Part shown: positions 13,412-28,277 of the stretch, piece by piece
How the letters are laid out: each line of letters begins with the position of its first letter
How positions within the stretch are numbered: the stretch's first letter is position 1
NCBI GenBank assembly: GCA_021299035.1
Contig: JAJTGD010000018.1
Coordinates: 1-36,954, forward strand
Direction: 5' to 3'
DNA from: Oxalobacteraceae bacterium
GTDB lineage: Bacteria > Pseudomonadota > Gammaproteobacteria > Burkholderiales > Burkholderiaceae_D
DNA: 36,954 nucleotides
Notes under the pieces: generated by a model
Told to the model about the DNA's origin: nothing
The model's database searches: none
What the model saw: only the letters and a program-made list of their open reading frames with translations
Translations under genes and position numbers: made by a program

Positions 13412-14143
13412 CTAGCGTAGTCCTGCTTCTGGTCGACAGACAGCGTGAGTGTATAAACCCTCCGGGCTATCGCCGGATATAACTACCCCGAACTTATTGG
13501 CAGAGGTTTGAAACACCAGTACACCAAAGTCATCCATTTTTCGAGCATCGGCTGCCCGCTGCGCGATGTGCCAAACGCTCGAGAGATCGCTGGTTTCACC
13601 CACGCTATGCATTCCAAATTGCGACCGGCTCTCTGGCTTCAGCCTAACCAGGTGAACATGTAATTGATTCTGAGATCTGCGTAGGCGCGGATTAACGACT
13701 AGGGCAATATCCTCCGCTGACATTCTTGATATCGCGATACGCCATGAGAATAGCCAGATCGAATCAGGCTTATTCGGATCTTCAACGCCGGTAACTATCG
13801 CCTTCGGTAGTACTAGACCGTGTACAAAGTCATCCGGGCATCCGCACATCTTGATATCCCGCATCGCCACATAATCCTTGTCTTCCGCCCAAATCTCAAC
13901 GGTGGCTCTACAAGTAGGCTCTGCTAGACAACCAACACTTTTTTGAGGAAGCCGACACTGGCTACAATAACTGGGAGAACTAGCGTCAACACAGCGTTGC
14001 ACGATATGAAGCAAAGTATCACTGGGTGCAGCCGCATTTACAGAAATGCTGGTCGTCTGTGCTATCAACAGCAGCACTAAGCTAAGAAAGCGCAATCGCG
14101 ACCTCGTGAAGTAATAATTATCAATCGAATGTTTTGGAGGCAT
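13412..14143 (-). CDS. cdh: Exported CDP-diacylglycerol pyrophosphatase-like protein
   Basis: The Cdh family hydrolyses CDP-diacylglycerol to phosphatidate and CMP. The protein has an N-terminal export signal (basic TRSRLRF, hydrophobic core, cleavage near SVNA-AAP). The mature part has several cysteines, then the family patterns DKDYVAMRDIKMCGCP, HGLVLPKAIVTGVEDP and RRSQNQLHVHLVRLKP; the last is the HxH of this HIT-like fold. Length (about 243) fits the family. The ATG at 14143 is used; a TTG nine codons earlier is possible, and neither has a clear Shine-Dalgarno. Neighbouring lipid and phosphate genes agree with a phospholipid role. The assignment rests on motifs alone, and a cysteine-rich insert makes it divergent. 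Confidence 0.62.
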   Translation of the reverse strand: MPPKHSIDNYYFTRSRLRFLSLVLLLIAQTTSISVNAAAPSDTLLHIVQRCVDASSPSYCSQCRLPQKSVGCLAEPTCRATVEIWAEDKDYVAMRDIKMCGCPDDFVHGLVLPKAIVTGVEDPNKPDSIWLFSWRIAISRMSAEDIALVVNPRLRRSQNQLHVHLVRLKPESRSQFGMHSVGETSDLSSVWHIAQRAADARKMDDFGVLVFQTSANKFGVVISGDSPEGLYTHAVCRPEAGLR

Positions 14144-14238
14144 GGCTAGGTAGGCATGCCCGTTGACCAAGACGCCTCATCAAGGTCAATCAAGCAATTG
14201 GATCTAGCTGCTAATGCAGGAAACCTGTTCTCTCTGCT

Positions 14239-14475
14239 TTACTTGGCGGTGGCGTCGATTGCCCCGCTGGACCTCAACCTCGACTTGTATTCAGCGTGCC
14301 CACGCTCACACGCAATAAACGCCAGGGATGAGACAGACAAGCCCGCAAAGTCGGATACATCGAAGGCTCGAGCAAATTCAAAAGCCTCGTCCACCACGAA
14401 GTAGCCGAGACTTCGCATTCGCGTCAATTCGTTGATAACAGCTGCTGGTGAGGTAAAAGTGTTAACCGTATCCAT
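14239..14475 (-). CDS. Small hypothetical protein (78 aa)
   Basis: Not recognised. The sequence looks protein-like: a start MDTVNTFTSPAAVINELTRM, then an acidic/aromatic stretch with VVDEAFEFARAFDVSDFAG and a basic end. It contains two segments that could be amphipathic helices, no signal peptide, and one Cys. It lies upstream of, and in the same direction as, the CDP-DAG pyrophosphatase-like gene. No clear ribosome-binding site is seen, and an overlapping plus-strand frame exists, so it is tentative. Confidence 0.35.
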   Translation of the reverse strand: MDTVNTFTSPAAVINELTRMRSLGYFVVDEAFEFARAFDVSDFAGLSVSSLAFIACERGHAEYKSRLRSSGAIDATAK

Positions 14476-14944
14476 AGCAATACCGGGGAAAGTGGGACCG
14501 AGCGAAAAATACCGCTCCTGAATTTCAACTTCGTGACACCGATCCCGTTACCCCGGTCTGCCAATCCACCACCCGTCGGCGAATGCAGAGCCTCGCGACC
14601 AGCCTGCTGGCTGGCTCAGGATCAGCCCGCCTCGGCAGGTTCCACTAACTGGAACACTCCCGCCAAATACAAATTATCTAATTCAGGAAAGTAGCCAATA
14701 GGCGTGGCCTATACGCAGCCCGGTAATAGCGCCTGATATGCGACCAGCTAAATGACAGGGTTCGGCCCGTCGAAACGCACCTCATCGGATATCGACCGAC
14801 CACGCTTGCTAATCGATGGAGGAAATTGAGAGCCGAAAAAGTCGTGGGGCCTAGGCAAACCTACCGCCAGAATCGCTGCTTGGAAGCACGGATCATTACT
14901 GACAAAAGAAACCACATGGTATGGACATCTTAATTTACATACTA
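14476..14944. other. Long non-coding stretch with short hairpins
   Basis: No convincing gene is seen. Several short inverted repeats are present: CCAGCC/GGCTGG at 14599-14614, GTTCCA/TGGAAC at 14639-14655, and GAGCG/CGCTC near 14503-14520. None has a T-run. The region could be a long leader of the gene at 14982, remnants of lost sequence, or an RNA. I see no match to a known RNA family. Confidence 0.4.
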
Positions 14945-14959
14945 TATAAACCGTTTATA
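14945..14959. promoter_or_regulatory. Palindrome in the promoter of the first H1-like gene
   Basis: TATAAAC-C-GTTTATA is a perfect 7+7 inverted repeat 22 bp before the start codon at 14982. It overlaps a possible -10 (TATACG at 14956-14961; TTTACA lies 17 bp upstream as -35). The position fits a repressor operator, possibly autoregulatory (inference). Confidence 0.4.
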
Positions 14960-14981
14960 CGGAAAAACAGGGGATGTATCG

Positions 14982-15416
14982 ATGGACCTTATGACGCTCT
15001 GGCTTGATGGATCAATCGCGGATAGCGACAGCCGCGCTAGCTCGGCTTATCAAAAGCTCTCAAAATTGCCGAGCAAGAAAAAAGGTGGCTCTGGAGCCAC
15101 GGCAAAGAAAAGTGCCAAGGCTGGAAAAAAGGCAGATGCGAAGGCGGGCTCGAAAGCTGGGACTGAGAAGAAGAAGCTCGATGTCAAGCACGCCGCGCTT
15201 GTCCGGGACAGCTTCACCATCCCCGGAGATGAGTTGCAGCTTTTGGCTGATGCCAAGAAAAAATGCTTGAAGGCCGGTATTGATATCAAGAAAAGTGAAT
15301 TGATCAGGATCGGGATTTCGCTTGTCTACGGCCTCGGACTATCCCGTCTGAAAAAAGAGAAAAGAGCACTACAACCCATTAAAACTGGCCGACCCAAAAA
15401 GGCCAAGCTCGTATAG
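14982..15416 (+). CDS. Lys/Ala-rich H1-like protein with C-terminal RHH-like domain (paralogue 1)
   Basis: 144 residues. A short N-terminus (1-30) precedes a Lys/Ala/Gly-rich disordered stretch (about 31-66), as in bacterial histone-H1-like proteins. A folded C-terminal domain follows (about 73-125), with a strand-like VRDSFTIP, helix ELQLLADAKKKCLKAG and helix IKKSELIRIGISLV. That order resembles a ribbon-helix-helix DNA-binding fold. The end, KTGRPKKAK, resembles an AT-hook core. The same domain and tail occur in the protein at 18778-19314. AGGGG lies 8 nt before the ATG. It is probably a nucleoid-associated or regulatory DNA-binding protein (inference); its function is not established. Confidence 0.75.
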   Translation: MDLMTLWLDGSIADSDSRASSAYQKLSKLPSKKKGGSGATAKKSAKAGKKADAKAGSKAGTEKKKLDVKHAALVRDSFTIPGDELQLLADAKKKCLKAGIDIKKSELIRIGISLVYGLGLSRLKKEKRALQPIKTGRPKKAKLV

Positions 15417-15469
15417 ATGGGTCGAACTGTTCTGAAACTACATTCAAACAATTCAAGGGGGGGAATCCT

Positions 15470-15868
15470 ATGAATGGCGTACATTTGACCGCTGATCTGG
15501 CTGGATGCAAAACCAATCACAGCCTGATGACTGATGCTGAAAAACTGCGCGAGATTTGCATTGAACTGGTGGCGATCAGTGGATTGACCGCGGTTCATGA
15601 CCTGTTTTACCAGTTTGAACCAGCAGAAAATGAAGACGCTGGCGGAGTCACCGGCACGGTGCTGCTGGCCGAATCTCACCTGGCCATCCATACCTGGCCG
15701 GAGTTATCAGCGGTAACGCTGGATGTGTATGTCTGTAATTTTTCAACAGACAATCGAAGCAAGGCACAACAGCTGCTGGAGGGTGTGATCAGTCTATTTC
15801 AGCCAGCTTCTGCGCTAAGACAGCAAATTAAGCGCGGGAGCATGGGCGTAATAAATAAAGCAGCCTGA
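15470..15868 (+). CDS. speD: S-adenosylmethionine decarboxylase proenzyme
   Basis: It makes decarboxylated AdoMet, the aminopropyl donor for spermidine. The 132-residue protein belongs to the short prokaryotic class that self-cleaves to form a pyruvoyl group. The cleavage motif LAESHLAIHTWPE puts the processing serine at Ser69. His74 and Cys89 (DVYVCN) keep the spacing of Ser63/His68/Cys83 in the Thermotoga enzyme. A very strong GGGGGG precedes the ATG. No speE (spermidine synthase) is adjacent. It lies 53 bp after the first H1-like gene in the same direction and may share its transcript. Polyamines and Lys-rich proteins both compact DNA, so a link is conceivable but unproven. Confidence 0.92.
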   Translation: MNGVHLTADLAGCKTNHSLMTDAEKLREICIELVAISGLTAVHDLFYQFEPAENEDAGGVTGTVLLAESHLAIHTWPELSAVTLDVYVCNFSTDNRSKAQQLLEGVISLFQPASALRQQIKRGSMGVINKAA

Positions 15869-15919
15869 CGTCCTGTGGCCAGCATCACTGCCCGATAGTT
15901 GTTCCTCAAGATGGTCGCG

Positions 15920-15940
15920 GCCCCGCTCTGATAGTGGGGC
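15920..15940 (+). terminator. Hairpin after speD (weak terminator candidate)
   Basis: GCCCCGC (15920-15926) pairs with GTGGGGC (15934-15940), including one G-T pair, around a 7-nt loop. No T-run follows, so it may only protect the mRNA end. Confidence 0.35.
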
Positions 15941-16094
15941 TGCATTGATCTAGTCAATACGTACCTACCTACCGCCCTCCCTTACACCCTGCACAAAGTA
16001 GCAGCGCCCAGTCGCGATTCAGGGTGAACAGCGCACCAACCCATCCGCTCTATCTCGGCAACTCGCCTCTCTTGGCGGGATGGCTGAGCACTTC

Positions 16095-16112
16095 GTTACA
16101 GAAATGTGACAG
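16095..16112 (-). promoter_or_regulatory. Orphan Pho-box-like site, best match in the window
   Basis: The minus strand reads CTGTCACATTTCTGTAAC, agreeing with CTGTCAYAWAWCTGTCAY at 16 of 18 positions, with the two half-sites 11 bp apart. Its orientation points towards speD's 3' end, where no minus-strand gene is evident. It may serve an antisense or small RNA, or act on the genes to the right despite orientation. Confidence 0.5.
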
Positions 16113-16207
16113 AAAAATGAATATTTGATGATGTCTGCCCGGCATTCGATGCTTATATTCATTGTCATTTTGCGGAAACTTTCTTGTTTCAGACTTGCAC
16201 TCATTCC

Positions 16208-16250: not shown

Positions 16251-16275
16251 TAAATCCAAGAGAGATGAGAGCGCC

Positions 16276-16374: not shown

Positions 16375-16387
16375 TCGAGGTCACATC

Positions 16388-17164
16388 ATTACTACCGCAC
16401 GACAAAACGAGATCCTCGGGTTAGGTCTCGGAATACTGTTGTTACTTTTTTCGACCCTCGCTAGAGCGGCGGTATTTGTAAGCAACTTTGATCCCGTAAC
16501 TCCTCCAACACTGTCGATTCCACCCTCCTGGCAAATCATCCGCCTGGAGAACCATGTTCCGGCCACTACCTATCGACAGCGCCATTGGGATGGGGTGAAT
16601 GCTATCGAAGCAAATGCGGATGCAAGCATGGCCCTTCTAGGTCGTCTAGTAGACGTTGATCTGCATGAAACGCCAATGCTTTGCTGGCTTTGGCGGACCG
16701 ATAGTGTCGTTAAATCAGCCAATATGACAAAACGGCAGGGCGACGATTATGCGGCGCGGGTGTATTTAGCATTTTCCCTCCCAAAGGAAACGCTTACGCT
16801 GGCGGATAAAGCTGCGCTCACCATTGTGCGAGGGATTTTTGGCAGTCAGGTCCCCGATGGTGCAATCAACTATGTTTGGGACAACATGCACCCGGTCGGC
16901 ACAAGGATGCCGAATGCTTATACCTCTCGGGCGAAGATGGTGGTTCTCCGAACCGGTAATGTAGATTCAGAAAAGTGGGTAGGCGAGAGAGTGAATGTCC
17001 TTGACGACCTGCAACGGTCCTTTGGAACCACGGGCGGCAAACTGAAATTACTCGCAATCGCCTCGGACTCGGACAACACGAAAGAGAAGGTCCGGGCTGG
17101 GTTTGCAGACATCGCATTTGTCAGAGCGGATGAAGCCTGCCCCACCACGGGGCCTCATAACTAA
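16388..17164 (+). CDS. DUF3047 family exported protein, probable non-AUG start
   Basis: The mature part matches the DUF3047 pattern: a Trp-containing N-terminus, an Asp/Tyr-rich middle with KRQGDDYAARVYLAF, NYVWDNMHPVGT and the end LLAIASDSDNTKEKVRAGFADIAF. The family's function is unknown to me. The frame is closed by TAG at 16352-16354 and holds no ATG or GTG before the domain. The first TTG (16439) falls inside the hydrophobic core. Reading from ATT at 16388, seven bases after GAGG, gives a regular Sec signal, TTARQNEILGLGLG then ILLLFSTLARA, with cleavage ARA-AVF. ATT (or ATC at 16385) is therefore the probable start, giving about 258 residues. A sequencing error is the alternative. Confidence 0.7.
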   Translation: MTTARQNEILGLGLGILLLLFSTLARAAVFVSNFDPVTPPTLSIPPSWQIIRLENHVPATTYRQRHWDGVNAIEANADASMALLGRLVDVDLHETPMLCWLWRTDSVVKSANMTKRQGDDYAARVYLAFSLPKETLTLADKAALTIVRGIFGSQVPDGAINYVWDNMHPVGTRMPNAYTSRAKMVVLRTGNVDSEKWVGERVNVLDDLQRSFGTTGGKLKLLAIASDSDNTKEKVRAGFADIAFVRADEACPTTGPHN

Positions 17165-17253: not shown

Positions 17254-18021
17254 TCAGGCGGTTTGCGCATCCTTCAAATAATGCCGTGCGTACCTGCTAT
17301 CCAATCTGAATAAGGGCAACATCATAAACAAATCTGCCGTATGAAAATCTGGATCCCAAGCAGGCTCGCTACAGATCCAAGCACCGCTCCTTAAATAACC
17401 CTTGATCAGCGGCGGAACTTGCAAGACCTCATGCGTCGGGCCATCATGCAACTCGTACTTCAATTTTGGCGACACACGATATTCTTCAGGACACAAATTT
17501 TCTTTGGCTAGCTTTCTGTAAAGCGCGTTGACTGAGCCACCACCGTCAGCGAGGCTGACGCTTGCACAACCTATCAAGAATTGTGCTCGTTCTCGCTGCA
17601 TACAAGAAGCCAGTCCAGACCACAGCATCATGATGACACCGCCATGTCGGTAGTCGGGATGTATGCATGCACGGCCAGCTTCGATGATAGAGTCTCGAAT
17701 CGGCGAGAGCTTGCCAAGATCAAATTCTTTTTCGGAGTAGAAGGTTTTGGTCTTTTTCAAGCCGTGACGAGTGAGGACCCGGTAGGTCCCCACGACCTCA
17801 CCCGTTCGGGTATCGCGTACGATGAGGTGGTCACAGAATTCATCAAATTCGTCACGTTCTAGCCCATCGGAATTCTGTAGCGCCTGTAAGCCGGTAGCTT
17901 CAACGAAAACTTTATATCGCAATCGCTGTACTTCCCTGATTTGCTCTTGGGTATTCGCTATGCTCAGGTTAAGCTTCGGAAAGTTTGCCTTCCCATCGGA
18001 ACTGACTGTGATCAAGCGCAT
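17254..18021 (-). CDS. olsB: OlsB-type L-ornithine N-alpha-acyltransferase (GNAT)
   Basis: OlsB transfers a 3-hydroxyacyl group from ACP to the alpha-amino group of ornithine, giving lyso-ornithine lipid, the first step to a phosphorus-free membrane lipid. The 255-residue protein shows LRYKVFVEATG (about 34-44), the acidic RDEFDEFCDHLIV, VVGTYRVL, YSEKEFDL and EAGRACIHPDYR of this GNAT subfamily, often annotated as hemolysin-like. AAGGAGG lies at ideal distance from the ATG at 18021, preferred to a GTG two codons upstream. No olsA is adjacent, so the second acylation must be encoded elsewhere or by a generic acyltransferase. A Pho-box-like repeat lies about 55 bp upstream. Another acyl-homoserine-lactone-synthase-like GNAT is less likely. 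Confidence 0.75.
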   Translation of the reverse strand: MRLITVSSDGKANFPKLNLSIANTQEQIREVQRLRYKVFVEATGLQALQNSDGLERDEFDEFCDHLIVRDTRTGEVVGTYRVLTRHGLKKTKTFYSEKEFDLGKLSPIRDSIIEAGRACIHPDYRHGGVIMMLWSGLASCMQRERAQFLIGCASVSLADGGGSVNALYRKLAKENLCPEEYRVSPKLKYELHDGPTHEVLQVPPLIKGYLRSGAWICSEPAWDPDFHTADLFMMLPLFRLDSRYARHYLKDAQTA

Positions 18022-18075
18022 AATCACTCCTCCTTATGATCGGGGTGGAATGTATCAGCGACAATTTTCAATTTC

Positions 18076-18093
18076 GTGACTTATTGATGACAA
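18076..18093 (-). promoter_or_regulatory. Candidate Pho box upstream of olsB
   Basis: The minus strand reads TTGTCATCAATAAGTCAC, with GTCA half-sites 11 bp apart and 14 of 18 positions agreeing with the Pho-box consensus. It is 55 bp before the olsB start and correctly oriented for it. It also sits immediately before the divergent gene at 18098. Confidence 0.55.
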
Positions 18094-18097
18094 CAAT

Positions 18098-18676: not shown

Positions 18677-18690
18677 AGCAAGACATGGAG

Positions 18691-18721
18691 TTGTCATATT
18701 TGTGTCATCAGACTAAATAAT
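18691..18721 (+). promoter_or_regulatory. Candidate Pho-box promoter of the second H1-like gene
   Basis: TTGTCATATTTGTGTCAT (18691-18708) carries two TGTCAT half-sites 11 bp apart and agrees with the consensus at 15 of 18 positions. AATAAT at 18716-18721 can serve as the -10. The start codon is at 18778 in the same direction. Confidence 0.62.
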
Positions 18722-18777: not shown

Positions 18778-19314
18778 ATGATCAACACCGCCACCCCCAC
18801 CGCCGCCGCAGAAGAACCCCAGGTTGCTGACAAACCCGCCACGAAAAAATCACCCGCTGCTAAGAAAAGTGCTGCGAAAAAATCACCCGCTGCTAAGAAA
18901 AGTGCTGCTAAAAAATCATCCGGGGCCAGAAAGAAAGCTGCTGCAAAAAAAACGGTGAGCAGATCTGCCCAAGGCAAGCTCGCGAAAAAGGCCGCGTCCA
19001 AGGCTGCTGCAAAAACTAAGCCGGTAAAGCTGGCGAAGCAGCCCAAGCAAAAGGCCGCGAAGCCAAAAACCACGAAAGCAGACAAACCCAAAAAACCGAA
19101 ACTTGTGCGCGATGGCTTCACCATGCCCGAGCAAGAATATGCCTTACTGGGTCAGATTAAAAAAGCCTGTCAAGCTGGCGGTATCGCTATCAAGAAGAGC
19201 GAGTTGCTACGTATTGGCGTTGCCCAACTAGCTGCGATGAACCTCAAGAAACTGAAGGCAGCACAGGCTGCCCTCACCCCGCTCAAGGCTGGGCGACCCA
19301 AAAAATCCAAGTAA
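18778..19314 (+). CDS. Lys/Ala-rich H1-like protein with C-terminal RHH-like domain (paralogue 2)
   Basis: 178 residues. Residues about 22-106 form a Lys/Ala/Pro-rich tail with an 11-residue repeat, KKSPAAKKSAA, encoded by near-identical 33-bp units from 18844. The C-terminal domain (about 108-160) has LVRDGFTMP, helix EYALLGQIKKACQAGG and IKKSELLRIGV, as in paralogue 1 (14982-15416). The end is KAGRPKKSK, AT-hook-like. AAGGAG lies 7 nt before the ATG. The Pho-box-like promoter upstream suggests induction in phosphate starvation. It is probably a DNA-compacting or regulatory protein (inference). A long reverse-strand frame here is a low-complexity artefact. Confidence 0.78.
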   Translation: MINTATPTAAAEEPQVADKPATKKSPAAKKSAAKKSPAAKKSAAKKSSGARKKAAAKKTVSRSAQGKLAKKAASKAAAKTKPVKLAKQPKQKAAKPKTTKADKPKKPKLVRDGFTMPEQEYALLGQIKKACQAGGIAIKKSELLRIGVAQLAAMNLKKLKAAQAALTPLKAGRPKKSK

Positions 19315-19476: not shown

Positions 19477-19510
19477 GCGGTCTTCTTGCAGGATGGGCCA
19501 AGAAGACCGC
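19477..19510. repeat. Perfect 12-bp hairpin in the phoX leader
   Basis: GCGGTCTTCTTG (19477-19488) pairs with CAAGAAGACCGC (19499-19510) around a 10-nt loop. It ends 14 nt before the phoX ATG, where a Shine-Dalgarno would be expected and none is visible. It may control translation. Confidence 0.6.
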
Positions 19511-19524: not shown

Positions 19525-21675
19525 ATGCAAGATCACAAAGACAGCCTAGCAGTAGACTTTCAGGCCGTTCTTCAGCAAAGGCTTTCACGCCGGGGATTGC
19601 TGAAGGGTTCATTGGCAGCCGCGAGTACCAGTTATCTCGGCGTAGGCGGTCTCGCCGCTTCAAGCTCGAGCGATGCGCAGGCCGCTGGGCCGCGACTGCG
19701 TTTGAATTTCAACACGGTAGCCAAAGGTCTCGATGACTTAGTTCGGCTACCAGCGGGTTACTCGTACAAGATGTTACTCGCTACGGGCGACCCGATTGCA
19801 GCGGGGATTCCTGCCTATACCAACACTGGCGCAGACGAGGCGAGCAGTTTCGCTCGCCGCGCCGGTGACCATAACGACGGCATGCATTTCTTTGGTATGA
19901 ATACCAAAGGCCGGTGGGATGCAAAGTCGTCGGATCGCGCTCTACTGTGCGTGAACCATGAGGCTATTACCAGTGCCTTTTTGCATCCGAATGGGCAAAC
20001 CATTGTCGATGGCAAGCGCACGGTGGATAGCGAAGTGCTTAAGGAAATGTTGGCGCACGGCGTGAGCGTTATTGAAGTTCGCCGCAAAGCGGGTACCTAT
20101 GAAGTGCAAACGGATTCACCGCGTAATCGCCGCATCACCACCATGACCGAGATGGAAATTAGTGGACCTGCTGCCGGTAGCCCGCTGATGATCACGCGTT
20201 ACTCGCCCACTGGCAAGCGCACGCGCGGCACACTCGGTAACTGTGCCAACGGCCATACCCCTTGGGGAACCTATCTCACTTGTGAAGAAAACTGGGCTGG
20301 CTATTTCCGACGCCCTGCAGCGGATGACGCGAAACGTAGCGGGCAGCAACTCACCGCATTGAAGCGCTATAACCTTGCAGGCAACGGGCGTGAGCTATGG
20401 GCGACCGCCGGCCCTGATGGGAACGATCAACGCTTTAGCCGCTGGGATGCCTCGGTGATGGGTTCTTCTACCGATGGCAGTGACGATTTCCGGAATGCGC
20501 CGAACACCTTCGGTTGGGTAGTCGAGATTGATCCGTTCAATCCAGACGTCGCACCCAAAAAACGTACGGCACTTGGTCGCTTCGCGCATGAGGGTGCCTG
20601 GCCGGGCCCGGTGCGCCCTGGTCACCCTTTGGTGTGGTACATGGGCTGTGATGCGCGGGGTGAGTACATTTATAAATTTGTTTCTGCCAAAGCTTGGGAT
20701 CCCGCAGACGCTGGCAAAGGTATCTCGGCCGGTGACAAATACCTTGATGACGGTCGTCTGTATGCCGCACGCTTTAATGCCGACGGTGGCGGTGATTGGC
20801 TTGAGCTGAGTCTGGGGCAAAACACTATCGACAGCAAAAACGCTACCTATCCCTTTGCGAATCAAGCAGACGTCTTGATTCATGCTCGACTCGCCGCCGA
20901 CGCGGCAGGGGCCACCAAAATGGATAGGCCCGAGTGGGGTGCAGTGAACCCGCGAAATGGCGAGGTTTACATGACCCTTACCTACAACCCGTCGCGCGAC
21001 TTCAACAAACTAGATGCCGCTAATCCTCGCTTCTACACTGACTCCAAAGCCGGCAAGCAAGGGCGAGGTAACGTCAACGGCCACATCATCCGCTGGGCAG
21101 AGCACGATAGCCAGCAAGGTGCCACACGGTTCAACTGGGACGTGTTCTTGTTCGCGGCACGCGAGAGCGCTGACCGTGACAACGTCAACCTCTCCGGTCT
21201 GGATGCCAGCAATGATTTTTCTTCACCGGATGGGCTCTGGTTCTCCCAAAGCGGCTTGCTGTGGATAGAGACGGATGACAGCGCCTATACCGATACCAGT
21301 AACTGCATGCTGCTAGCCGCAATACCTGGGGCGGTGGGCGATGGCAGTCAACGCGAGATCATCAGCCGCGACGGTGATCAGCAAAAAAGTATTCGCACCC
21401 CCGTCGGCGCTGAAGCCTCGCCGGATACACTGCGTCGATTCCTTGTAGGCCCGGTCGATTGCGAGATCACAGGCTTGGCCGAGTCACCTGATGGTAAGGC
21501 CTTATTCGTCAATATCCAGCACCCTGGTGAGACCACTAATGGCAAGGGTTTTGATATCGCCAAGCCGAATACCTATCTCAGCCATTGGCCGGACGGTGGC
21601 AATGCGCGACCACGCTCCGCCACTATCGTGATCACGCGTGACGATGGCGGGCCGATTGGAGCCGATCTGGTCTGA
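19525..21675 (+). CDS. phoX: PhoX-family alkaline phosphatase, TAT-exported
   Basis: PhoX phosphatases (DUF839 family) use calcium and iron and release phosphate from organic esters outside the cytoplasm. The 716-residue protein has a twin-arginine signal, SRRGLLKGSLAAA (Arg22-Arg23), followed by a Ser/Ala region and AQAAGP as likely cleavage area. Family features include ARRAGDHNDGMHFF, LCVNHEAIT, NGHTPWGTYLTCEENWAG with the conserved Cys, and LSGLDASNDFSSPDGLWF near the C-terminus. The ATG at 19525 is chosen; the frame extends back to a TTG at 19486, but that stretch forms a strong hairpin. A weak Pho-box-like repeat lies upstream. It is followed by the plcP operon in the same direction. 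Confidence 0.88.
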   Translation: MQDHKDSLAVDFQAVLQQRLSRRGLLKGSLAAASTSYLGVGGLAASSSSDAQAAGPRLRLNFNTVAKGLDDLVRLPAGYSYKMLLATGDPIAAGIPAYTNTGADEASSFARRAGDHNDGMHFFGMNTKGRWDAKSSDRALLCVNHEAITSAFLHPNGQTIVDGKRTVDSEVLKEMLAHGVSVIEVRRKAGTYEVQTDSPRNRRITTMTEMEISGPAAGSPLMITRYSPTGKRTRGTLGNCANGHTPWGTYLTCEENWAGYFRRPAADDAKRSGQQLTALKRYNLAGNGRELWATAGPDGNDQRFSRWDASVMGSSTDGSDDFRNAPNTFGWVVEIDPFNPDVAPKKRTALGRFAHEGAWPGPVRPGHPLVWYMGCDARGEYIYKFVSAKAWDPADAGKGISAGDKYLDDGRLYAARFNADGGGDWLELSLGQNTIDSKNATYPFANQADVLIHARLAADAAGATKMDRPEWGAVNPRNGEVYMTLTYNPSRDFNKLDAANPRFYTDSKAGKQGRGNVNGHIIRWAEHDSQQGATRFNWDVFLFAARESADRDNVNLSGLDASNDFSSPDGLWFSQSGLLWIETDDSAYTDTSNCMLLAAIPGAVGDGSQREIISRDGDQQKSIRTPVGAEASPDTLRRFLVGPVDCEITGLAESPDGKALFVNIQHPGETTNGKGFDIAKPNTYLSHWPDGGNARPRSATIVITRDDGGPIGADLV

Positions 21676-21695: not shown

Positions 21696-21724
21696 ATGTC
21701 ATACAACCGACATATTGCTGTCAT
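21696..21724 (+). promoter_or_regulatory. Candidate triple Pho box of the plcP-agt operon
   Basis: TGTCAT at 21697, CGACAT at 21708 and TGTCAT at 21719 form three half-sites with an exact 11-bp period. Each overlapping pair agrees with the 18-bp consensus at 14 positions. It lies 55-80 bp before the plcP start and is correctly oriented. Confidence 0.65.
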
Positions 21725-21778: not shown

Positions 21779-22660
21779 ATGAATCAGCGACAAGCTTTCA
21801 CAGAATTAAAACAAAAAAAGAAGCTACCGAAGCACCCGCTTTACAAACCGGTTCCACTCCGATTCCGAACCATCTTCATTTCTGACATTCACCTTGGCAC
21901 GAGTGGCTGCCAAGCCAAGCGCCTACTGGAATTCCTCAAAGCCACTGAATCCGACAAGCTTTATTTGGTTGGCGATATCGTCGACGGCTGGCAACTTAAA
22001 CGTCGCTGGTACTGGCACCAGACCCACAATGACGTCGTTCAAGTGGTTCTGAAAAAGGCGAGAAAAGGAACTAAAGTCATCTTCGTGCCGGGCAACCACG
22101 ATGAGTCAGTTCGGCAGTTCATCGGGCTAGACTTTGGTGGCATCAAGATTCGTGATGAATTAGTCCATAAGACCGCCGATGGCCGCAAGCTGCTGGTGTT
22201 ACATGGTGATCGCTTCGATGGCGTGATCGCCTGCGCAAAGTGGCTGGCCTACGTGGGCGATTCGCTGTACACCATGATTCTGAAATTTAACCAGTACTAC
22301 AACAATTGGCGGGCGCGTGTCGGTCTGCCGTACTGGTCCTTATCGCAATACCTCAAGCTGAAAGTGAAAAACGCGGTCAGCTACATCACCTCCTTTGAGG
22401 AGGCTCTGGCGGCTGAGGCGCGTAAGAAAGGTTTGGATGGCGTGATCTGCGGCCATATTCACAAGCCGGAGATTCGGGACATTGACGGCATCTTGTATTG
22501 CAATGATGGCGATTGGGTCGAGAGTTTGTCAGCGCTGGTAGAAGAGCCCAGCGGCGAATTACGACTGGTTGATTGGCATGAAATCATGCTGCGCTGGGAG
22601 CAAGCGCAACTCAAGAAAGAGGAAGAACACGAGGATGAGCTATGCATGCAACCCGCGTGA
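21779..22660 (+). CDS. plcP: PlcP-type phospholipase C (metallophosphatase fold)
   Basis: In rhizobia and marine bacteria PlcP removes phosphate head groups from phospholipids during phosphate starvation, giving diacylglycerol for new lipids. The 293-residue calcineurin-like protein shows FISDIHLGTSGCQAKRLLEF (Asp36, His38), VGDIVDG (Asp66), VPGNHDE, LHGDRFDG and ICGHIHKPE, so all metal-binding blocks are present. A basic, possibly membrane-associating N-terminus (KQKKKLPKHP) precedes the domain. CGGAGAG lies 5 nt before the ATG. Database annotation would often say UDP-2,3-diacylglucosamine diphosphatase (LpxH-like). The longer size, the GTSGCQA motif and the overlapping glycosyltransferase gene favour PlcP. 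The reading frame overlaps the next gene by 19 bp. Confidence 0.78.
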   Translation: MNQRQAFTELKQKKKLPKHPLYKPVPLRFRTIFISDIHLGTSGCQAKRLLEFLKATESDKLYLVGDIVDGWQLKRRWYWHQTHNDVVQVVLKKARKGTKVIFVPGNHDESVRQFIGLDFGGIKIRDELVHKTADGRKLLVLHGDRFDGVIACAKWLAYVGDSLYTMILKFNQYYNNWRARVGLPYWSLSQYLKLKVKNAVSYITSFEEALAAEARKKGLDGVICGHIHKPEIRDIDGILYCNDGDWVESLSALVEEPSGELRLVDWHEIMLRWEQAQLKKEEEHEDELCMQPA

Positions 22661-23946
22661 CCGACTATTCCATACCTGTGAGTGGATTGAGCGGCGGGCT
22701 TGGTGCCGAGTTGAATAGTGGATTGAGTAGCGGGTTAAATGGTGGGCTGGATAGTGGCCTAAGCAGCGGCCTTGAGTTTGTACCGTCCTTTTCGATCGAT
22801 AGCCCCAGCGCGGAAGATAGTCGCAAACGTATCCTCATGCTGTCGGTATCCGCAGGGAACGGTCACGTGCGCGCCGCCGAAGCCTTGGTCGCGCATGCGC
22901 GTGCTGACTTCCCTGCCATCTCGGTTCGCCATCAGGATGTGCTGCAGTTGGTACCGCGGTGGTTCAGCAAGATTTATCGCGATGTATATATGGCGTTGGC
23001 GCATCGACTCCCCGATGCCTGGGGTTGGCTGTACCGGGCAACGGATGCAGCAGCGCCGGGAAGTTTGGGTATACGCGCGCGCAAGGCAATACAAACACTG
23101 TGTGCATCACGCCTGCTTGATGAAATCCGGCGCTACCAGCCGGACATGATTATCTGCACCCACTTTCTGCCTGCAGAGATTTTGGCGGATGCGCGCTTGA
23201 AGCAACAAGTCACTTGCCCGATCTGGGTACAAGTCACCGACTTCGACCTTCACCCAATCTGGGTACAGCCGGGTATCAGTGGCTACTTTGTCGCGAATGA
23301 CGAACTGGCCTACCGACTGTATGCACAGGGCGTCCCCAGCTCGCGCGTTGTTGTAACGGGTATCCCGTTGATGCCGGGCTTCGCCATGCCGCCCGATCGC
23401 AGCTCGGTATCCCGACAACTTGGATTTGATCCGCAAAAAACCACCCTACTGATAATGAACGGTGGCGCTGGCGCTGGACTGCAACAATCGCTAGTGCAAT
23501 CCTTACTGAAGCAGCATCCGGATTTACAGTTGATTGTACTGACGGGTCGTAACAACGCACTGCGCGAATCACTGCAATCAATCGAAGCGTTTTTTCCCAC
23601 CCGCCTACGTGCCTTGGGTTTCATTGATGATGTGTATCGGCTAATGGCCTGCGCTGATCTGGCGATCACCAAGCCCGGCGGGCTATCGACCTCCGAGTGT
23701 CTCGCGATGGGGTTGCCGATGCTACTGGTGAATCCCATCCCAGGTCAGGAAGAGCGCAATGCAGCATGGTTGATTCAAGAGGGTGCTGCGCTACGCGCCG
23801 ATGATCCTGCTACCCTGCAATTTCGTTTGCAACGATTACTCAACGATCGACACAAGCTTGAAGCCATGCGCTCCCGTGCGCGATCACTCGCCAAGCCATT
23901 TGCGGCACGTGAAGTCCTGCAGCTAGCACGTACAGTGACTCGGTGA
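22642..23946 (+). CDS. agt: Agt/MGDG-synthase-type diacylglycerol glycosyltransferase
   Basis: This family adds sugar (glucose or glucuronate in Agrobacterium Agt) to diacylglycerol, making glycolipids that replace phospholipids. The 434 residues carry an MGDG-synthase N-terminal domain (RILMLSVSAGNGHVRAAEAL at about 63-82) and a GT28 C-terminal domain with ITKPGGLSTSECLAMGLP and NPIPGQEERNA (about 345-378). Residues about 14-45 are an unusual Gly-Leu-rich repeat (SGL-xx-GL) not expected for the family. The ATG at 22642 follows GAGGATGAGCT and overlaps the plcP 3' end, implying translational coupling. PlcP would supply its diacylglycerol substrate. The sugar donor cannot be told from sequence by eye. 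Confidence 0.8.
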   Translation: MHATRVTDYSIPVSGLSGGLGAELNSGLSSGLNGGLDSGLSSGLEFVPSFSIDSPSAEDSRKRILMLSVSAGNGHVRAAEALVAHARADFPAISVRHQDVLQLVPRWFSKIYRDVYMALAHRLPDAWGWLYRATDAAAPGSLGIRARKAIQTLCASRLLDEIRRYQPDMIICTHFLPAEILADARLKQQVTCPIWVQVTDFDLHPIWVQPGISGYFVANDELAYRLYAQGVPSSRVVVTGIPLMPGFAMPPDRSSVSRQLGFDPQKTTLLIMNGGAGAGLQQSLVQSLLKQHPDLQLIVLTGRNNALRESLQSIEAFFPTRLRALGFIDDVYRLMACADLAITKPGGLSTSECLAMGLPMLLVNPIPGQEERNAAWLIQEGAALRADDPATLQFRLQRLLNDRHKLEAMRSRARSLAKPFAAREVLQLARTVTR

Positions 23947-23948
23947 CG

Positions 23949-24416
23949 ATGGCGAACTTCTCGATGCCGGACTATATGGTCACGCTGGGCTTTGTGGTGT
24001 TACTTGGATTTTTTTTCGCGAAGCTCGAGATCGCGATTGAGGGCGATGCCGGCTGGGCTGCCAACCTACCGACCTGGCGCATCGAGAAGCATTGGTTACT
24101 CGATCTATTCTGGGGTGGTCGCGAGATGACGGGCTACCATGCCTGGGCATTTTCACTGATCGCGCTGTTCTTTCACTTCCCGCTGATTTTTTCTGGCGAC
24201 TTTAGCTGGGCTGCAGAGCAACGTGCACTCGCTTCCATCATGCTGTTCTGGGTCAGTGAGGATTTTCTCTGGTTTGTATTGAACCCGGCATTCGGCTTGC
24301 GCCGGTTCGAAAAAACTCACGCCGGCTGGCACCGTCACTGGTGGATGGGTGCGCCGATTGAGTACTGGATTTTTACACCGCTGGGCTTGTGGTGGATGTA
24401 TTCGTCATACCAATGA
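23949..24416 (+). CDS. Unknown four-helix membrane protein in the plcP-agt operon
   Basis: About 155 residues with four hydrophobic segments (about 8-30, 63-83, 95-118 and 137-153). Between the last two lies the striking loop FEKTHAGWHRHWWMGAPIEY, rich in His, Trp and Arg, which suggests a catalytic or head-group-binding site at the membrane face. I do not recognise a characterised family. The start is the ATG 2 bp after the agt stop; a GTG two codons earlier overlaps that stop. The tight spacing makes it the third gene of the plcP-agt unit. A role in the same lipid remodelling, such as modifying, flipping or helping to make the glycolipid, is inference only. Confidence 0.72.
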   Translation: MANFSMPDYMVTLGFVVLLGFFFAKLEIAIEGDAGWAANLPTWRIEKHWLLDLFWGGREMTGYHAWAFSLIALFFHFPLIFSGDFSWAAEQRALASIMLFWVSEDFLWFVLNPAFGLRRFEKTHAGWHRHWWMGAPIEYWIFTPLGLWWMYSSYQ

Positions 24417-24518: not shown

Positions 24519-24977
24519 TCAATCGCTGAAGAATTCCGGCGCCAATACCGCTTTCAAATAAATCGCATTGCCTTCGTCGCGATCGCGTTGCGCGATCCAC
24601 CAGGCATTGGACTTTTTGATCGTCCAGTCTTGCTCAACCCCGGTCAAGACCAAAGACGCGACACGACCAAGCCATGGTTGATGCCCTACCACCAGCACTT
24701 GGCCGCGCGCATTCGGCCAGCCGGCTGCGTGCAATACTTCGTAGGCAGTAGCATCTGGGCCGATTTCAGAGACGATCTTGTACTTACGACCCAGCGCCTC
24801 GACCGTTTGCAGCGTGCGCGCAGTAGGGCTGCTCAGTATTTTGCAGCTAGCGGGCAATACCCGATCCAACCAGGCACCCATACGCTGCGCCTGCTTGCGA
24901 CCTTGCGCGGTGAGTTCGCGCGTATGGTCAGGACTACCCACCTCCGCCTGCGCATGACGCCACAGAATCAGATCCAT
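24519..24977 (-). CDS. sixA: Phosphohistidine phosphatase SixA
   Basis: SixA removes phosphate from phosphohistidine on proteins such as HPt domains or PTS components in the cytoplasm. The protein is 152 residues of the histidine-phosphatase (RHG) superfamily. The catalytic motif ILWRHAQAE (Arg7, His8) starts the chain, SSPTARTLQT carries the second Arg, and LVVGHQPWLG the second His. The ATG at 24977 shares one base with the ppk stop codon (TGATG) and is preceded by GGGGGAG. A GTG one codon earlier is the alternative. Stop/start overlap with ppk marks one transcript. Pairing of sixA with ppk is common in proteobacteria. Confidence 0.88.
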   Translation of the reverse strand: MDLILWRHAQAEVGSPDHTRELTAQGRKQAQRMGAWLDRVLPASCKILSSPTARTLQTVEALGRKYKIVSEIGPDATAYEVLHAAGWPNARGQVLVVGHQPWLGRVASLVLTGVEQDWTIKKSNAWWIAQRDRDEGNAIYLKAVLAPEFFSD

Positions 24978-27070
24978 CACTCCCCCAGTGTCTCCATCAG
25001 ATGATCTTGGGCACTGAATAGCGGCTGTCGGGCGCTTGGTTTACGGCGATGATAGTGTCCGTCAGCGTCGAGTTCCCAGGCTTTATGGTTATCTTTCAAG
25101 TAGGGCTTTAAACCCTCGTCGATTACGCGCTGCTTCAGCTCAGGGTCCAGCACCGGGAAGGCCACCTCAACCCGTCGAAACAAATTACGGTTCATCCAGT
25201 CAGCGCTCGCGAGATAGACATCCGCTTTACCACCGTTGTGGAAGTAAAAAATGCGACTGTGCTCGAGGAAACGACCAACGATGGAACGGACTCGAATATT
25301 TTCCGATAGCCCCGGAACACCGGGTCGCAATACGCACGCACCGCGAACGATTAAATCAATTTTCACACCAGCCTGCGAGGCTTCGTATAACGCCATGATG
25401 ATTGATTCATCTTGTAGCGCATTCATCTTGGCAATGATACGGCCGTCACCGCCCTCGGTTGCGATCTGTGCCTCATGATGGATCGCCTTAAGCAACTCCT
25501 TGCTCAACTCGAAAGGGGCGACCCATAAATGAGCCAATTTTCTGGGGCGTGTCAGGCTGGTTAGATTAATAAAGACCTCATTCACCTCGCGGGCCAACGA
25601 CTGATTCGCCGTCAATAAACCAAAGTCCGTATAAAACTTGGTGGTCGTGGGGTGATAATTTCCCGTACCAAGGTGGGCGTACATTTTCAACTTACCGGAT
25701 TCGCGGCGAATCACCAACGCCATTTTGGCGTGCGTCTTCATACCCACCACACCGTAGACCACTTGGGCACCAACCCGCTCCAGCTTGTCAGCCCAATTGA
25801 TGTTGGCCTCTTCATCAAAGCGCGCCATCAGTTCCACCACTACAGTTACTTCCTTGCCGTTTTGAGCAGCGGCGATCAGAGACTCCATCAGCTCGGAGTT
25901 CATCCCGGTTCGGTAAATTGTCTGCTTGATCGCGACGACCGAGGGATCGACTGCGGCCGACCGCAGAAACTCGATGACAGGCTCGAATGATTGATAAGGG
26001 TGATGCAATAACCAGTCTCGCTGGCTAATGAGTGCAAAGATATCCTCATGCGCCACCGGCATCGACAGATCCGCGGCAAAGGGCTTGAAGCGAAAAGCCG
26101 GCTCAGATGCGTAATCAATCAGCTCATTCAGCCTCACCATATTCACCGGGCCGTCGACTGGGTACAAAAACTCCGGTGAAATGTCGAATTGCTCGAGAAG
26201 AAAATTGGACAGGTTTTCCGGGCAATTTTGAGCGACTTCGAGACGCACTGCAAATCCGAATTGGCGCGTTTGCAATTCGCCCTTTAACGCTTGGCGTAGG
26301 TTTTTTACCTCTACCTCATCGACCCATAGATCGCTGTCGCGGGTGACGCGGAACTGTGAATACCCAAGGACTTGGCGACCCGGGAAAAGATCCGCGATAT
26401 GGGCATGGATTACTGACGACAACAAACAGTAGGCAACCCCATTACCATTTAAACCATCAGGCAGGCGAATAATCCTCGGCAAAACCCGAGGTGCCTTCAT
26501 GACCGCGATCGTGGTGCCTTTACCGAATGCATCCTTACCTGCCAGTTCGACGATAAAGTTAAGACTCTTGTTCACGACTTGCGGGAACGGATGCGCGGGG
26601 TCGAGCACGATCGGCGTGAGCAAGGGACGAACCTCGCGCTCGAAATAGTCTTTCACCCACAAACGCTGCGCATCGTTACGATCCAGATGACGCATTAGAT
26701 GAATACCCTGATCGGCGAGCGCCGGAAGTATGTGGTCGTTGAGTGCTTGGTACTGCTCCTCAACCAGCGCATGTGCAGCCACACTGACTTGGTCAAAGCC
26801 ACGCATCCAGATGCCGTGCCCAGCCGCACCCTCTTCTCGGTCACGCGCCAGCAAACTGGCAACGCGCACTTCAAAAAATTCATCGAGGTTGCTACTGACA
26901 ATGCAAAGAAACTTGAGTCGCTCAAGCAACGGGATATCGGGGTCTTGCGCCTGCGCCAAAACACGGCGGTTAAACGCCAGCATCGACAGCTCCCGGTTGA
27001 GGAAGCTGGCAGGCGGCGACGCATTCGCAGGATTTTTTGTGCTCACAGGGGCTTTGGCGGTGATTTTCAT
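24977..27070 (-). CDS. ppk: Polyphosphate kinase 1
   Basis: PPK1 reversibly makes long-chain polyphosphate from ATP at the inner membrane. The 697-residue length is typical. The N domain starts with FLNRELSMLAFNRRVL (about 23-38) and has NLDEFFEVR. The catalytic region has MKTHAKMALV with the phospho-accepting His447 and YAHLGTGNYHPTTTKFYTDF with His466. These are 19 residues apart, as with His435/His454 of E. coli. The third block near the end has FYFHNGGKADVYLASADW and RRVEVAFPV. Translation starts at the ATG at 27070. A Pho-box-like repeat lies 22 bp upstream, implying a very short leader. It is divergent from pstS. Confidence 0.95.
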   Translation of the reverse strand: MKITAKAPVSTKNPANASPPASFLNRELSMLAFNRRVLAQAQDPDIPLLERLKFLCIVSSNLDEFFEVRVASLLARDREEGAAGHGIWMRGFDQVSVAAHALVEEQYQALNDHILPALADQGIHLMRHLDRNDAQRLWVKDYFEREVRPLLTPIVLDPAHPFPQVVNKSLNFIVELAGKDAFGKGTTIAVMKAPRVLPRIIRLPDGLNGNGVAYCLLSSVIHAHIADLFPGRQVLGYSQFRVTRDSDLWVDEVEVKNLRQALKGELQTRQFGFAVRLEVAQNCPENLSNFLLEQFDISPEFLYPVDGPVNMVRLNELIDYASEPAFRFKPFAADLSMPVAHEDIFALISQRDWLLHHPYQSFEPVIEFLRSAAVDPSVVAIKQTIYRTGMNSELMESLIAAAQNGKEVTVVVELMARFDEEANINWADKLERVGAQVVYGVVGMKTHAKMALVIRRESGKLKMYAHLGTGNYHPTTTKFYTDFGLLTANQSLAREVNEVFINLTSLTRPRKLAHLWVAPFELSKELLKAIHHEAQIATEGGDGRIIAKMNALQDESIIMALYEASQAGVKIDLIVRGACVLRPGVPGLSENIRVRSIVGRFLEHSRIFYFHNGGKADVYLASADWMNRNLFRRVEVAFPVLDPELKQRVIDEGLKPYLKDNHKAWELDADGHYHRRKPSARQPLFSAQDHLMETLGE

Positions 27071-27091
27071 GACTGAGCCTAATGTAGCTTC

Positions 27092-27109
27092 ATGACAAAC
27101 CCGTGACAG
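27092..27109 (-). promoter_or_regulatory. Candidate Pho box of ppk-sixA
   Basis: The minus strand reads CTGTCACGGGTTTGTCAT, with TGTCA half-sites exactly 11 bp apart, agreeing with the consensus at 14 of 18 positions. It is oriented towards ppk, beginning 22 bp before its ATG. Confidence 0.6.
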
Positions 27110-27140
27110 CGTTATAAAGGAAGTAATTATTCGCTTGAAA

Positions 27141-27170
27141 CTGTCATAAGTGTCATATGGATGAAATATT
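27141..27170 (+). promoter_or_regulatory. TGTCAT-rich candidate PhoB region of pstS
   Basis: TGTCAT occurs at 27142 and 27151 (9 bp apart, not the usual 11). A partial third half-site, TGAAAT, lies at 27162, 11 bp after the second. AATATT at 27165 may be the -10. It is oriented towards pstS, about 60-90 bp before its ATG. Confidence 0.5.
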
Positions 27171-27230
27171 CATTCCGTAAAGTTCTCCCAGTCTTTTGTT
27201 GACTGTCTAACAATCCCCCAAGGAGTATCC

Positions 27231-28277
27231 ATGCGAACCAAGCAATTGATTAAGGGCGTCGCCGTCGCTGCAGTAGGCGCTCTGATGACCCTCTCAGTCC
27301 AGGCAGCTGAATTTACCGGTGCTGGCGCGACCTTCCCTTTCCCGATCTACTCCAAGTGGGCCGAGGCCTACAAGGCATCGACCGGCATCGGCTTGAACTA
27401 TCAGTCGATCGGTTCGGGCGGTGGCATGCGCCAGATCAAGGCGAAGACCGTCGACTTTGGTGCTTCCGACCAGCCTATGAAGGTTGAAGAGCTTGAAAAA
27501 GAAGGCATCGTGCAATTCCCCGCCATTATCGGTGGCGTTGTGCCGGTGTTCAACCTGGATGGTATTCAGGCGGGCCAATTAAAGTTTACGCCTGAACTCA
27601 TCAGCGCTATCCACCTCGGCAAGATCAGCAAATGGAATGACAAGGCCATCGCTGCGGTCAACCCAGATGTGAAACTGCCGGATCTGGCGATCACCGTGGT
27701 TCACCGCGCTGACGGTTCGGGCACGACCTTCCTTTGGACCGACTACCTGTCCAAAGCCAATGCCGAGTTCAAAGACAAAGTCGGTACCGGTAATGCGGTC
27801 AAGTGGCCCACCGGTGTGGGCGGCAAGGGTAATGAAGGTGTAGCTGCCAACGTACAGCGCGTCAAAGGTGCTTTCGGCTACGTTGAATACGCCTACGCTA
27901 AGCGTAACAAAATCCCTTACGGCCAAATGAAGAACCGTGATGGCGAGTTCGTAATGCCGGACGATGAGACCTTTAAGGCAGCTGCTGCCAGCGCTGACTG
28001 GGCGAACACCCCCGGCATGGGCGTGCTGCTGACGAACCAACCTGGTAAGCAGAGCTGGCCAGCGACTGGTGCTTCGTTCATCCTGATGCACAAGACTCAG
28101 GCTGATGCGCTCACCGGCCGTGCAGTATTGAAGTTTTTCGACTGGGCGTACAAGAACGGTGGCCAAATGGCAACCGAGCTTGAGTACGTGCCTATCCCTG
28201 CGCCTGTCGTGAAGCAAATCCAAGACCTTTGGAAAGCATCGTTCAAGGATAGCGCCGGCGCGCCGATATGGAAGTAA
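27231..28277 (+). CDS. pstS: Phosphate-binding periplasmic protein PstS
   Basis: This is the solute-binding protein of the high-affinity phosphate ABC transporter. The 348-residue precursor has a Sec signal (MRTKQLIKG, hydrophobic core, SVQA-AEF). The mature protein starts with the family signature FTGAGATFPFPIYSKWAEAY. Other ligand-loop motifs are SIGSGGGMRQI, VDFGASDQPM and RADGSGTTFLWTDYL, whose Ser/Arg/Thr residues bind phosphate. AAGGAG precedes the ATG. It stands alone with its own terminator, away from the pst genes whose pstB begins the right edge, so a second pstS may exist with that operon. It is divergent from ppk, sharing a TGTCAT-rich region. Confidence 0.95.
   Translation: MRTKQLIKGVAVAAVGALMTLSVQAAEFTGAGATFPFPIYSKWAEAYKASTGIGLNYQSIGSGGGMRQIKAKTVDFGASDQPMKVEELEKEGIVQFPAIIGGVVPVFNLDGIQAGQLKFTPELISAIHLGKISKWNDKAIAAVNPDVKLPDLAITVVHRADGSGTTFLWTDYLSKANAEFKDKVGTGNAVKWPTGVGGKGNEGVAANVQRVKGAFGYVEYAYAKRNKIPYGQMKNRDGEFVMPDDETFKAAAASADWANTPGMGVLLTNQPGKQSWPATGASFILMHKTQADALTGRAVLKFFDWAYKNGGQMATELEYVPIPAPVVKQIQDLWKASFKDSAGAPIWK

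Follow-up and report, generated by a model that had tools for sequence, protein, structure and literature searches.

A putative phosphate-economy island in an Oxalobacteraceae bacterium, with a GT28-type glycosyltransferase beside a PlcP-like phosphoesterase

Gene content and Pho-box-like repeats

Contig JAJTGD010000018.1 of an Oxalobacteraceae bacterium (GenBank assembly GCA_021299035.1; 36,954 nucleotides, analysed whole and hereafter called the window) is contig C51 of a 2.58 Mb draft genome (80 contigs, 94.9% complete), and carries between positions 13,412 and 28,277 a run of genes for phosphate scavenging, membrane lipid replacement and polyphosphate synthesis that a preliminary description had proposed to form a single phosphate-starvation programme. 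Searches of the window proteins against Pfam and NCBIfam bore out olsB, phoX, the ppk1-sixA pair and pstS at the places given for them (Table 1); the supposed plcP-agt pair consists of a PlcP-like metallophosphoesterase, as proposed, and a glycosyltransferase that belongs to GT28 rather than being a GT4 Agt. The phoR, phoB, phoU and pst genes, expected 6-9 kb further on, are present on the same contig, 5.3 to 8.7 kb beyond position 28,277. Overlooked until now were orf157, which encodes a four-helix membrane protein, two genes for histone H1-like proteins (A and B), a DUF3047 gene, an S-adenosylmethionine (SAM) decarboxylase gene and an arsenic cassette. PhoR-PhoB senses phosphate shortage via Pst-PhoU, and PhoX frees phosphate; PPK1 makes and Ppx breaks polyphosphate; OlsBA makes ornithine lipid, and PlcP frees diacylglycerol.

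Inspection of the 250 bases before each of 25 starts, scoring similarity to CTGTCATNNNNCTGTCAT with a weight of 1 for core letters and 0.5 for flanking ones (12 at most) and taking the best same-strand site and 500 dinucleotide shuffles of each region, gave the highest scores before H1-like B and ppk1, followed by plcP, olsB and, more weakly, pstS (scores in Table 1), with p of 0.100 or more in the other 20 regions. Two TGTCA repeats at 11 bp, as had been reported for several transcription units, are clear for olsB, plcP, ppk1 and also H1-like B, and are not found for phoX, phoB, phoR or phoU; pstS conforms only in part, its two complete TGTCAT copies being spaced by 9 bp, with a poorer third copy, TGAAAT, another 11 bp on. 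Across the window there are nine matches to CTGTCATNNNNCTGTCAT with up to three mismatches against a shuffle mean of 3.14 (1 of 100 shuffles reaches nine), and four matches to TGTCAYNNNNNTGTCA with up to one mismatch against a mean of 1.19 (4 of 100 shuffles reach four). Genome-wide the loose pattern occurs at 148 places, compared with 80 for a reversed control, so that isolated matches elsewhere carry little meaning. The phoX upstream region (p=0.214) holds CTGTAATGCAAGCTTCAC, which looks like a worn form of the CTGTCATGCAAGCTTCAT found at the identical position in relative G016. The phoX start itself was read from the sequence as ATG 19525 instead of TTG 19486; directly before it, at 19477-19510, lies a 12-bp inverted repeat, GCGGTCTTCTTG...CAAGAAGACCGC, partly retained in G016 and not seen in G001 or G005.

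We applied the same score to relatives at loci L095-L214, taking 250 bases before and 30 after each estimated start, discarding duplicate upstream sequences, those shorter than 200 bases and (H1-like genes exempt) protein matches that started after residue 60 or fell below 60 bits, and counting a score of 9.5 or more as a box. Boxes recur before ppk1 (16/21 regions), pstS (13/16), olsB (13/18) and phoX (7/10). They are present in 4/11 regions for phoB (a set that includes distant PhoB-like regulators), 5/26 for plcP, 1/3 for GapA, 1/7 each for DUF3047 and PhoR, 1/11 for H1-like B and 2/90 for orf157; none was found for GT28 (0/42), sixA (0/23), H1-like A (0/11), PhoU (0/5), o232 (0/4), ArsC (0/4), ArsJ (0/3), SAM decarboxylase (0/3) or PPK2 (0/1). 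The low plcP count perhaps reflects a common olsB-plcP unit: olsB stands directly before plcP in 11 of 15 loci of the genus, and its box could therefore also serve plcP. PhoB autoregulation was considered and set aside for the window, where phoB and phoR have no box; the four relatives' phoB regions noted above do pass.

Gene order was compared among 145 genomes (own included), 47 of which carry orf157: our own, 18 of 20 from the same genus and 28 from other genera. The surroundings of orf157 were retrieved from 15 of these same-genus genomes and 25 of those from other genera, so that all order counts are conditional on orf157 as the selection criterion; genes within 800 bases were called adjacent, and several contigs are cut. 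Within the genus, plcP-GT28, GT28-orf157 and sixA-ppk1 are adjacent in 15/15 loci, orf157-sixA and ppk1-pstS in 12/15, olsB-plcP in 11/15 and phoX-olsB in 10/15. Elsewhere GT28-orf157 persists (24/25), with plcP-GT28 in 6/25, sixA-ppk1 in 4/25 and olsB-plcP in 3/25. The island order thus holds within the genus, where the random scatter that would have told against a linked set was not seen, and loosens outside it.

The window acyltransferase is termed OlsB-like, as OlsB models are its best NCBIfam matches at 155 and 149 bits and miss their equivalog cut-offs of 350 and 320; the genome also holds two PF01553 acyltransferases, for one of which OlsA models rank best, under cut-off. As in the OlsBA pathway, the window olsB has a Pho box and an OlsA-like gene lies elsewhere in the genome; unlike that pathway, olsB here sits beside glycolipid genes, phoX, ppk1 and pstS. 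A Pho box before OlsB genes has been predicted in 21 of 43 Burkholderia sensu lato genomes (PMC7814305).

A GT28-type glycosyltransferase and its membrane partner

Both domains of the window glycosyltransferase exceed their Pfam cut-offs, MGDG_synth (monogalactosyldiacylglycerol synthase, MGDG) at 94 bits over positions 1-168 of 169 and Glyco_tran_28_C at 37.9 bits; the GT4-type Glycos_transf_1 family passes in the C-terminal half (32.9 bits, cut-off 26.4), yet scores lower. The best NCBIfam model is diglucosyl diacylglycerol synthase, at 233.7 bits against an equivalog cut-off of 500. Plants likewise use GT28 MGDG synthases in phosphate shortage. Both Pfam domains and the best NCBIfam model liken the enzyme to UgtP/YpfP diglucosyl-diacylglycerol synthases and plant-type MGDG synthases; unlike these, it falls under the equivalog cut-off and is paired with orf157 and, in the genus, plcP. 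Since its best families are GT28-type and the Agt of Agrobacterium and relatives is GT4 (PMC8231724), the identification as Agt was rejected, though the enzyme may do Agt's job of placing a sugar onto diacylglycerol released by PlcP. The genome has a separate LpxH on contig C55 (294 bits, above cut-off), compared with 50 bits for the window metallophosphoesterase, which is thereby free to be PlcP; we call it PlcP-like, as it belongs to a calcineurin-like phosphoesterase family and is not the LpxH of the genome.

As in PlcP-Agt renovation (Pseudomonas aeruginosa PA3219-PA3218 and PA0842; Phaeobacter; Sinorhizobium), where boxes and low-phosphate induction are described (PMC8528852), a metallophosphoesterase here adjoins a diacylglycerol glycosyltransferase behind a Pho box; it differs in that the glycosyltransferase is of GT28/MGDG-synthase type and has an additional membrane protein coupled to it. 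PlcP-linked lipid replacement was worked out with GT4 enzymes (PMC8231724, PMC8528852), and this locus offers a GT28 enzyme and a membrane partner. A literature search covering titles and the starts of abstracts returned no description of GT28 with PlcP, which is no proof of absence, and the part of PMC6445935 seen holds nothing on PlcP or Agt. The MGDG_synth family occurs in 52 of the 145 genomes and in 7 of 350 genomes of the class (own included in both). One same-genus genome (G017) has a second MGDG_synth match, at C226:641-1147 in a 675-aa open frame, and the N-terminus of the window GT28 protein contains a run of SGL/NGL-type repeats (22680-22790).

A scan of named genomes with an alignment built from 20 relatives retrieved 389 relatives of orf157, the best 80 of which were kept (three of these loci being one Noviherbaspirillum strain). 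Their hosts include Oxalobacteraceae, Massilia, Noviherbaspirillum, Cupriavidus, Ralstonia, Burkholderia, Caballeronia, Azonexus, Rhodanobacter, Dyella and Luteibacter, and the copy in an Oxalobacteraceae metagenome assembly (L135) is 99% identical to that of the window; a class-wide search of 350 genomes found orf157 in our own genome only. GT28 lies directly upstream of orf157 in 78 of the best 80 loci, the exceptions being L184, cut at a contig end, and L176, which has no GT28 there; of the 74 pairs whose ends could both be located, 49 overlap, and the median is a 4-base overlap. All 47 orf157 genomes of the 145 are among the 52 with the MGDG_synth family, including G049, which keeps the two genes ~344 kb apart (C1:180628 and C1:524797). 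Fisher's exact p for this co-occurrence is 8e-33 by genome and 2e-16 by genus, with relatedness ignored. A 563-aa frame in L168 had raised the possibility that GT28 and orf157 are fused there, which was dismissed, as the two frames differ.

The window orf157 protein has no match in Pfam or NCBIfam and none by sequence in the PDB; a Pfam search of 20 members hit two families, one member each, at E 0.11-0.13. A model built from 53 sequences (pLDDT confidence 88, pTM 0.82) places helices at 6-34, 62-82, 87-111 and 137-153, with an additional short helix at 49-54. Forty of 155 positions are invariant in the 53 sequences, 15 of them polar, including E27, E31, R44, H48, R58, H64, H76, E104, D105 and H128. 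Under a four-helix topology, 36 of the 40 fall on one side of the membrane, in stretches 27-66 and 99-140 (82 of 155 positions). The conserved-side loops average 2.3 and 2.6 lysines or arginines, compared with 0.2 for the 83-86 loop and 1.0 and 1.5 for the termini; given the values for the termini, a cytoplasmic location of the predicted active face is only likely.

The gene overlap and the co-occurrence with GT28 fit a subunit, and orf157 might do no more than tether a peripheral GT28 passively to the membrane, catalysing nothing itself; 40 invariant positions, 15 of them polar, would be hard to account for in a simple tether, and we think this explanation unlikely. We instead read orf157, from its gene association, as a partner in the glycolipid pathway. 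Open reading frame calls missed orf157 in 14 of the 80 loci; in the other 66, the gene directly downstream belongs to a HAD cluster in 10 and to a dual-specificity-phosphatase cluster in 8 (one member of each cluster was checked), and as a conjecture these neighbours could supply diacylglycerol. In one annotated record GT28 appears as 'glycosyltransferase' and orf157 as 'hypothetical protein', with a dual specificity phosphatase next in line; of four plasmid records with orf157, three label it hypothetical and one has no annotation there. On a Caballeronia plasmid (L215:4781-7051), GT28, orf157 and a dual specificity phosphatase gene lie near a prp operon, as the window island does, possibly by coincidence.

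H1-like proteins near polyphosphate and lipid genes

H1-like A and B, which have no further match in the draft genome at E<=0.01, have a common C-terminal domain (46% identity over the shared part) and net charges (K+R-D-E) of +21 and +40, respectively. The tail of B, which is N-terminal, is 27% lysine, 28% alanine and 8% proline with AAKKS-type repeats; the protein has no Pfam match at E<=1 and no NCBIfam match, and a C-terminal KPAA-repeat tail of AlgP/PhaF type was not found in it. Modelled as a monomer (pLDDT 84), the domain consists of three helices, with no strand assigned.

Homologues of H1-like B occur in 70 of the 145 genomes, own included. Within 800 bases of the gene in the 30 loci retrieved by the search (own included) lie Ppx in 15, OlsB in 14 and PhoX in 5, with at least one of the three near 23; the 15 Ppx-adjacent loci span 12 genera (the Ppx query was a relative's protein with a Pfam Ppx-GppA score of 224.6 bits). 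A box of at least 9.5 stands 68-69 bp upstream of H1-like B in our own genome, G016, G005 and G001 only, and H1-like A in the window has none. These associations are reminiscent of Pseudomonas aeruginosa AlgP, a strongly basic Lys/Ala-rich H1-like protein tied to polyphosphate, which localises to polyphosphate granules and whose basic tail is required for granule spacing (PMC9239181). The window protein differs from AlgP in having its tail at the N-terminus, AAKKS-type rather than KPAA repeats and a short conserved C-terminal domain, and in being linked to polyphosphate by gene neighbourhood only.

From this gene association we read the H1-like protein as a polyphosphate-nucleoid protein. The proteins could alternatively be general nucleoid or polyhydroxybutyrate (PHB)-granule proteins whose proximity to Ppx and OlsB is neighbourhood ancestry only, as might fit the seven of 30 loci with no Ppx, OlsB or PhoX within 800 bases (one of them, L092, a short contig) and a report that an HC2 histone-like protein makes up 17% of PHB-granule protein in Herbaspirillum (PMC3783465; a shared family is not established). 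That the gene adjoins ppx in 12 genera whose other neighbours vary, and that the window's clade has a Pho box, argues against this alternative, which we regard as possible if somewhat improbable. A search of titles and the starts of abstracts found no description of an H1-like/Ppx link, which does not prove its absence. Through its place beside exopolyphosphatase and its likeness to an H1 tail, the family offers a direct test of polyphosphate granule placement in betaproteobacteria.

An H1-like gene is paired with a SAM decarboxylase gene in 3 of 15 same-genus loci. In relatives L106 and L107 the pair lies between orf157 and sixA; in L077 and L085 the H1-like gene stands between acr3 and the SAM decarboxylase gene. 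The pairing may point to a connection between polyamines and polyphosphate or DNA.

A candidate programme under PhoB

From gene content, conserved order and upstream repeats, we consider it probable that this Oxalobacteraceae-type bacterium has here an island devoted to phosphate economy, its genes being induced together under PhoB. In phosphate shortage, PhoR would activate PhoB, and PhoB would bind the TGTCA repeats and induce olsB, H1-like B (with phoX behind it), plcP-GT28-orf157, ppk1-sixA and pstS. PstS and PhoX would bring in phosphate, while PlcP would cleave phospholipids to diacylglycerol, to which GT28 would add a hexose; orf157 would act together with GT28 on this lipid, whether by serving as its membrane subunit or, as an enzyme in its own right, by modifying or transporting the glycolipid. 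Ornithine lipid would be made in parallel by OlsB and an OlsA-like enzyme whose gene lies elsewhere. The polyphosphate made by PPK1 would be the phosphate store; binding both this polymer and DNA through its lysine-rich tail, the H1-like protein would arrange the granules on the nucleoid in the way that AlgP does in Pseudomonas. The enzyme roles in this scheme are putative, being assigned from family matches. The components are of known kinds, and what is new is the arrangement, with a GT28 enzyme in Agt's place.

A more far-reaching reading, which we offer tentatively and hold below even confidence, is that orf157 represents a family, so far undescribed, of small membrane enzymes that have diacylglycerol glycolipids as substrates and are obligately paired with GT28 (in Burkholderiales and in Rhodanobacter, Dyella and Luteibacter), that the Ppx-linked H1-like proteins are undescribed polyphosphate-nucleoid organisers, and that the island couples both under PhoB. 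These two unnamed families are the part worth pursuing.

Several observations weigh against these readings. The OlsB, OlsA, SixA and PhoB scores all lie below NCBIfam cut-offs, and a plcP box is present in few relatives' regions. Both orf157 and GT28 are lacking in two of the 20 same-genus drafts (G005, G009); GT28 is found without orf157 in 5 of the 145 genomes (G063, G100, G116, G123 and G132; the G063 match lies ~1 kb from a contig start, where orf157 may be cut off) and in 6 of the 350 genomes of the class, where four of the six matches are partial. The orf157 model has no fold match (best Foldseek E 4.2), and the strandless H1-like domain model has 14 weak ones (best E 2.9, none significant), several of which we take to be ribbon-helix-helix proteins. 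A Pho box as a general H1-like feature had to be abandoned, with only 4 of 30 loci having one. Outside the genus, finally, plcP adjoins GT28-orf157 in the 6/25 loci only and GT28 has no box of its own, so that GT28-orf157 need not be a phosphate-starvation function everywhere.

The last point could be extended to a Pho regulon of pstS, ppk1, olsB and phoX only, with GT28-orf157 a constitutive or otherwise controlled glycolipid pair that happens to lie beside plcP in this genus; the pair's usual separation from plcP in other genera, its boxless upstream regions and the HAD- and dual-specificity-phosphatase-cluster genes downstream of it all accord with such a division. Yet the pair follows plcP in every one of the genus loci (which were chosen for orf157), the window plcP has a three-copy box before it, and in four Luteibacter loci (L186, L192, L198, L208) the pair immediately follows phoB-phoR-ppk1, a Ppx-cluster gene coming next after orf157 in three of them (L198 unresolved). 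We judge the division distinctly unlikely. Conserved linkage and recurring Pho boxes lend support to the single programme first proposed, which need not extend to GT28-orf157 outside the genus, where the pair is mostly without plcP and without a box.

Table 1. Genes and Pho-box-like repeats of the window
Feature	Position	Strand	Match or remark
CDH-like (CDP-diacylglycerol-pyrophosphatase-like)	13412-14170	-	Pfam CDH 36.6 bits, cut-off 25; weak, partial
H1-like protein A	14982-15416	+	paralogue of B
SAM decarboxylase	15470-15868		after H1-like A
DUF3047 protein	16439-17164		207.6 bits
OlsB-like N-acyltransferase	17254-18027	-	first step of ornithine lipid synthesis; Acetyltransf_5 119 bits
Pho-box-like repeat, olsB	18076-18093	-	TTGTCATCAATAAGTCAC; score 9.5, p=0.008
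Pho-box-like repeat, H1-like B	18691-18708	+	TTGTCATATTTGTGTCAT; score 11.0, p=0.002
H1-like protein B	18778-19314	+	Lys/Ala-rich N-terminal tail, 76-aa C-terminal domain
PhoX phosphatase	19525-21675	+	Pfam PhoX 468 bits
Three-copy Pho-box-like repeat, plcP	21696-21724	+	score 10.0, p=0.006
PlcP-like metallophosphoesterase	21779-22660	+	Metallophos 52.6 bits
GT28 diacylglycerol glycosyltransferase, MGDG-synthase/UgtP type	22642-23946	+	MGDG_synth, Glyco_tran_28_C
orf157, four-helix membrane protein	23943-24416	+	overlaps GT28 stop by 4 bases
SixA-like histidine phosphatase	24519-24980	-	TIGR00249 64.8 bits, under cut-off 74.5
PPK1, polyphosphate kinase 1	24977-27070	-	TIGR03705 924 bits, above cut-off
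Pho-box-like repeat, ppk1	27092-27109	-	CTGTCACGGGTTTGTCAT; score 11.0, p=0.002
Pho-box-like repeats, pstS	27141-27167	+	best 11-bp-period site, score 9.0, p=0.038
PstS phosphate-binding protein	27231-28277	+	NF008171 430 bits, above cut-off
Arsenic cassette (ArsJ, ArsJ-associated GAPDH, ArsC, ArsR-type regulator, ACR3)	29148-33585		between pstS and phoR
PhoR	33590-34891	-	
PhoB	35067-35756	-	291.4 bits, cut-off 296.2
PhoU	35772-36470	-	
PstB	36484-36954	-	cut by contig end

The left edge of the island is less certain. The gene first described as a CDP-diacylglycerol pyrophosphatase does have a CDH match, weak and partial, and its membership is doubtful: it has no box upstream and is missing from L096 (the same contig as L136), the sole fetched relative that spans the place. 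A prp (propionate) cluster and PPK2 lie left of the island; PPK2 was likewise rejected as a member, having no box upstream, though it is retained in L096. The window contains no tRNA genes and no Rfam match above the gathering score. At the other end, arsJ adjoins pstS in 3 of 15 same-genus loci, and phoR comes next after pstS or after pstS-o232 in L096, L104 and L108. DUF3047 is present in 7 of the 15, on the opposite strand upstream of phoX in 5 and within 800 bases of it in 2.

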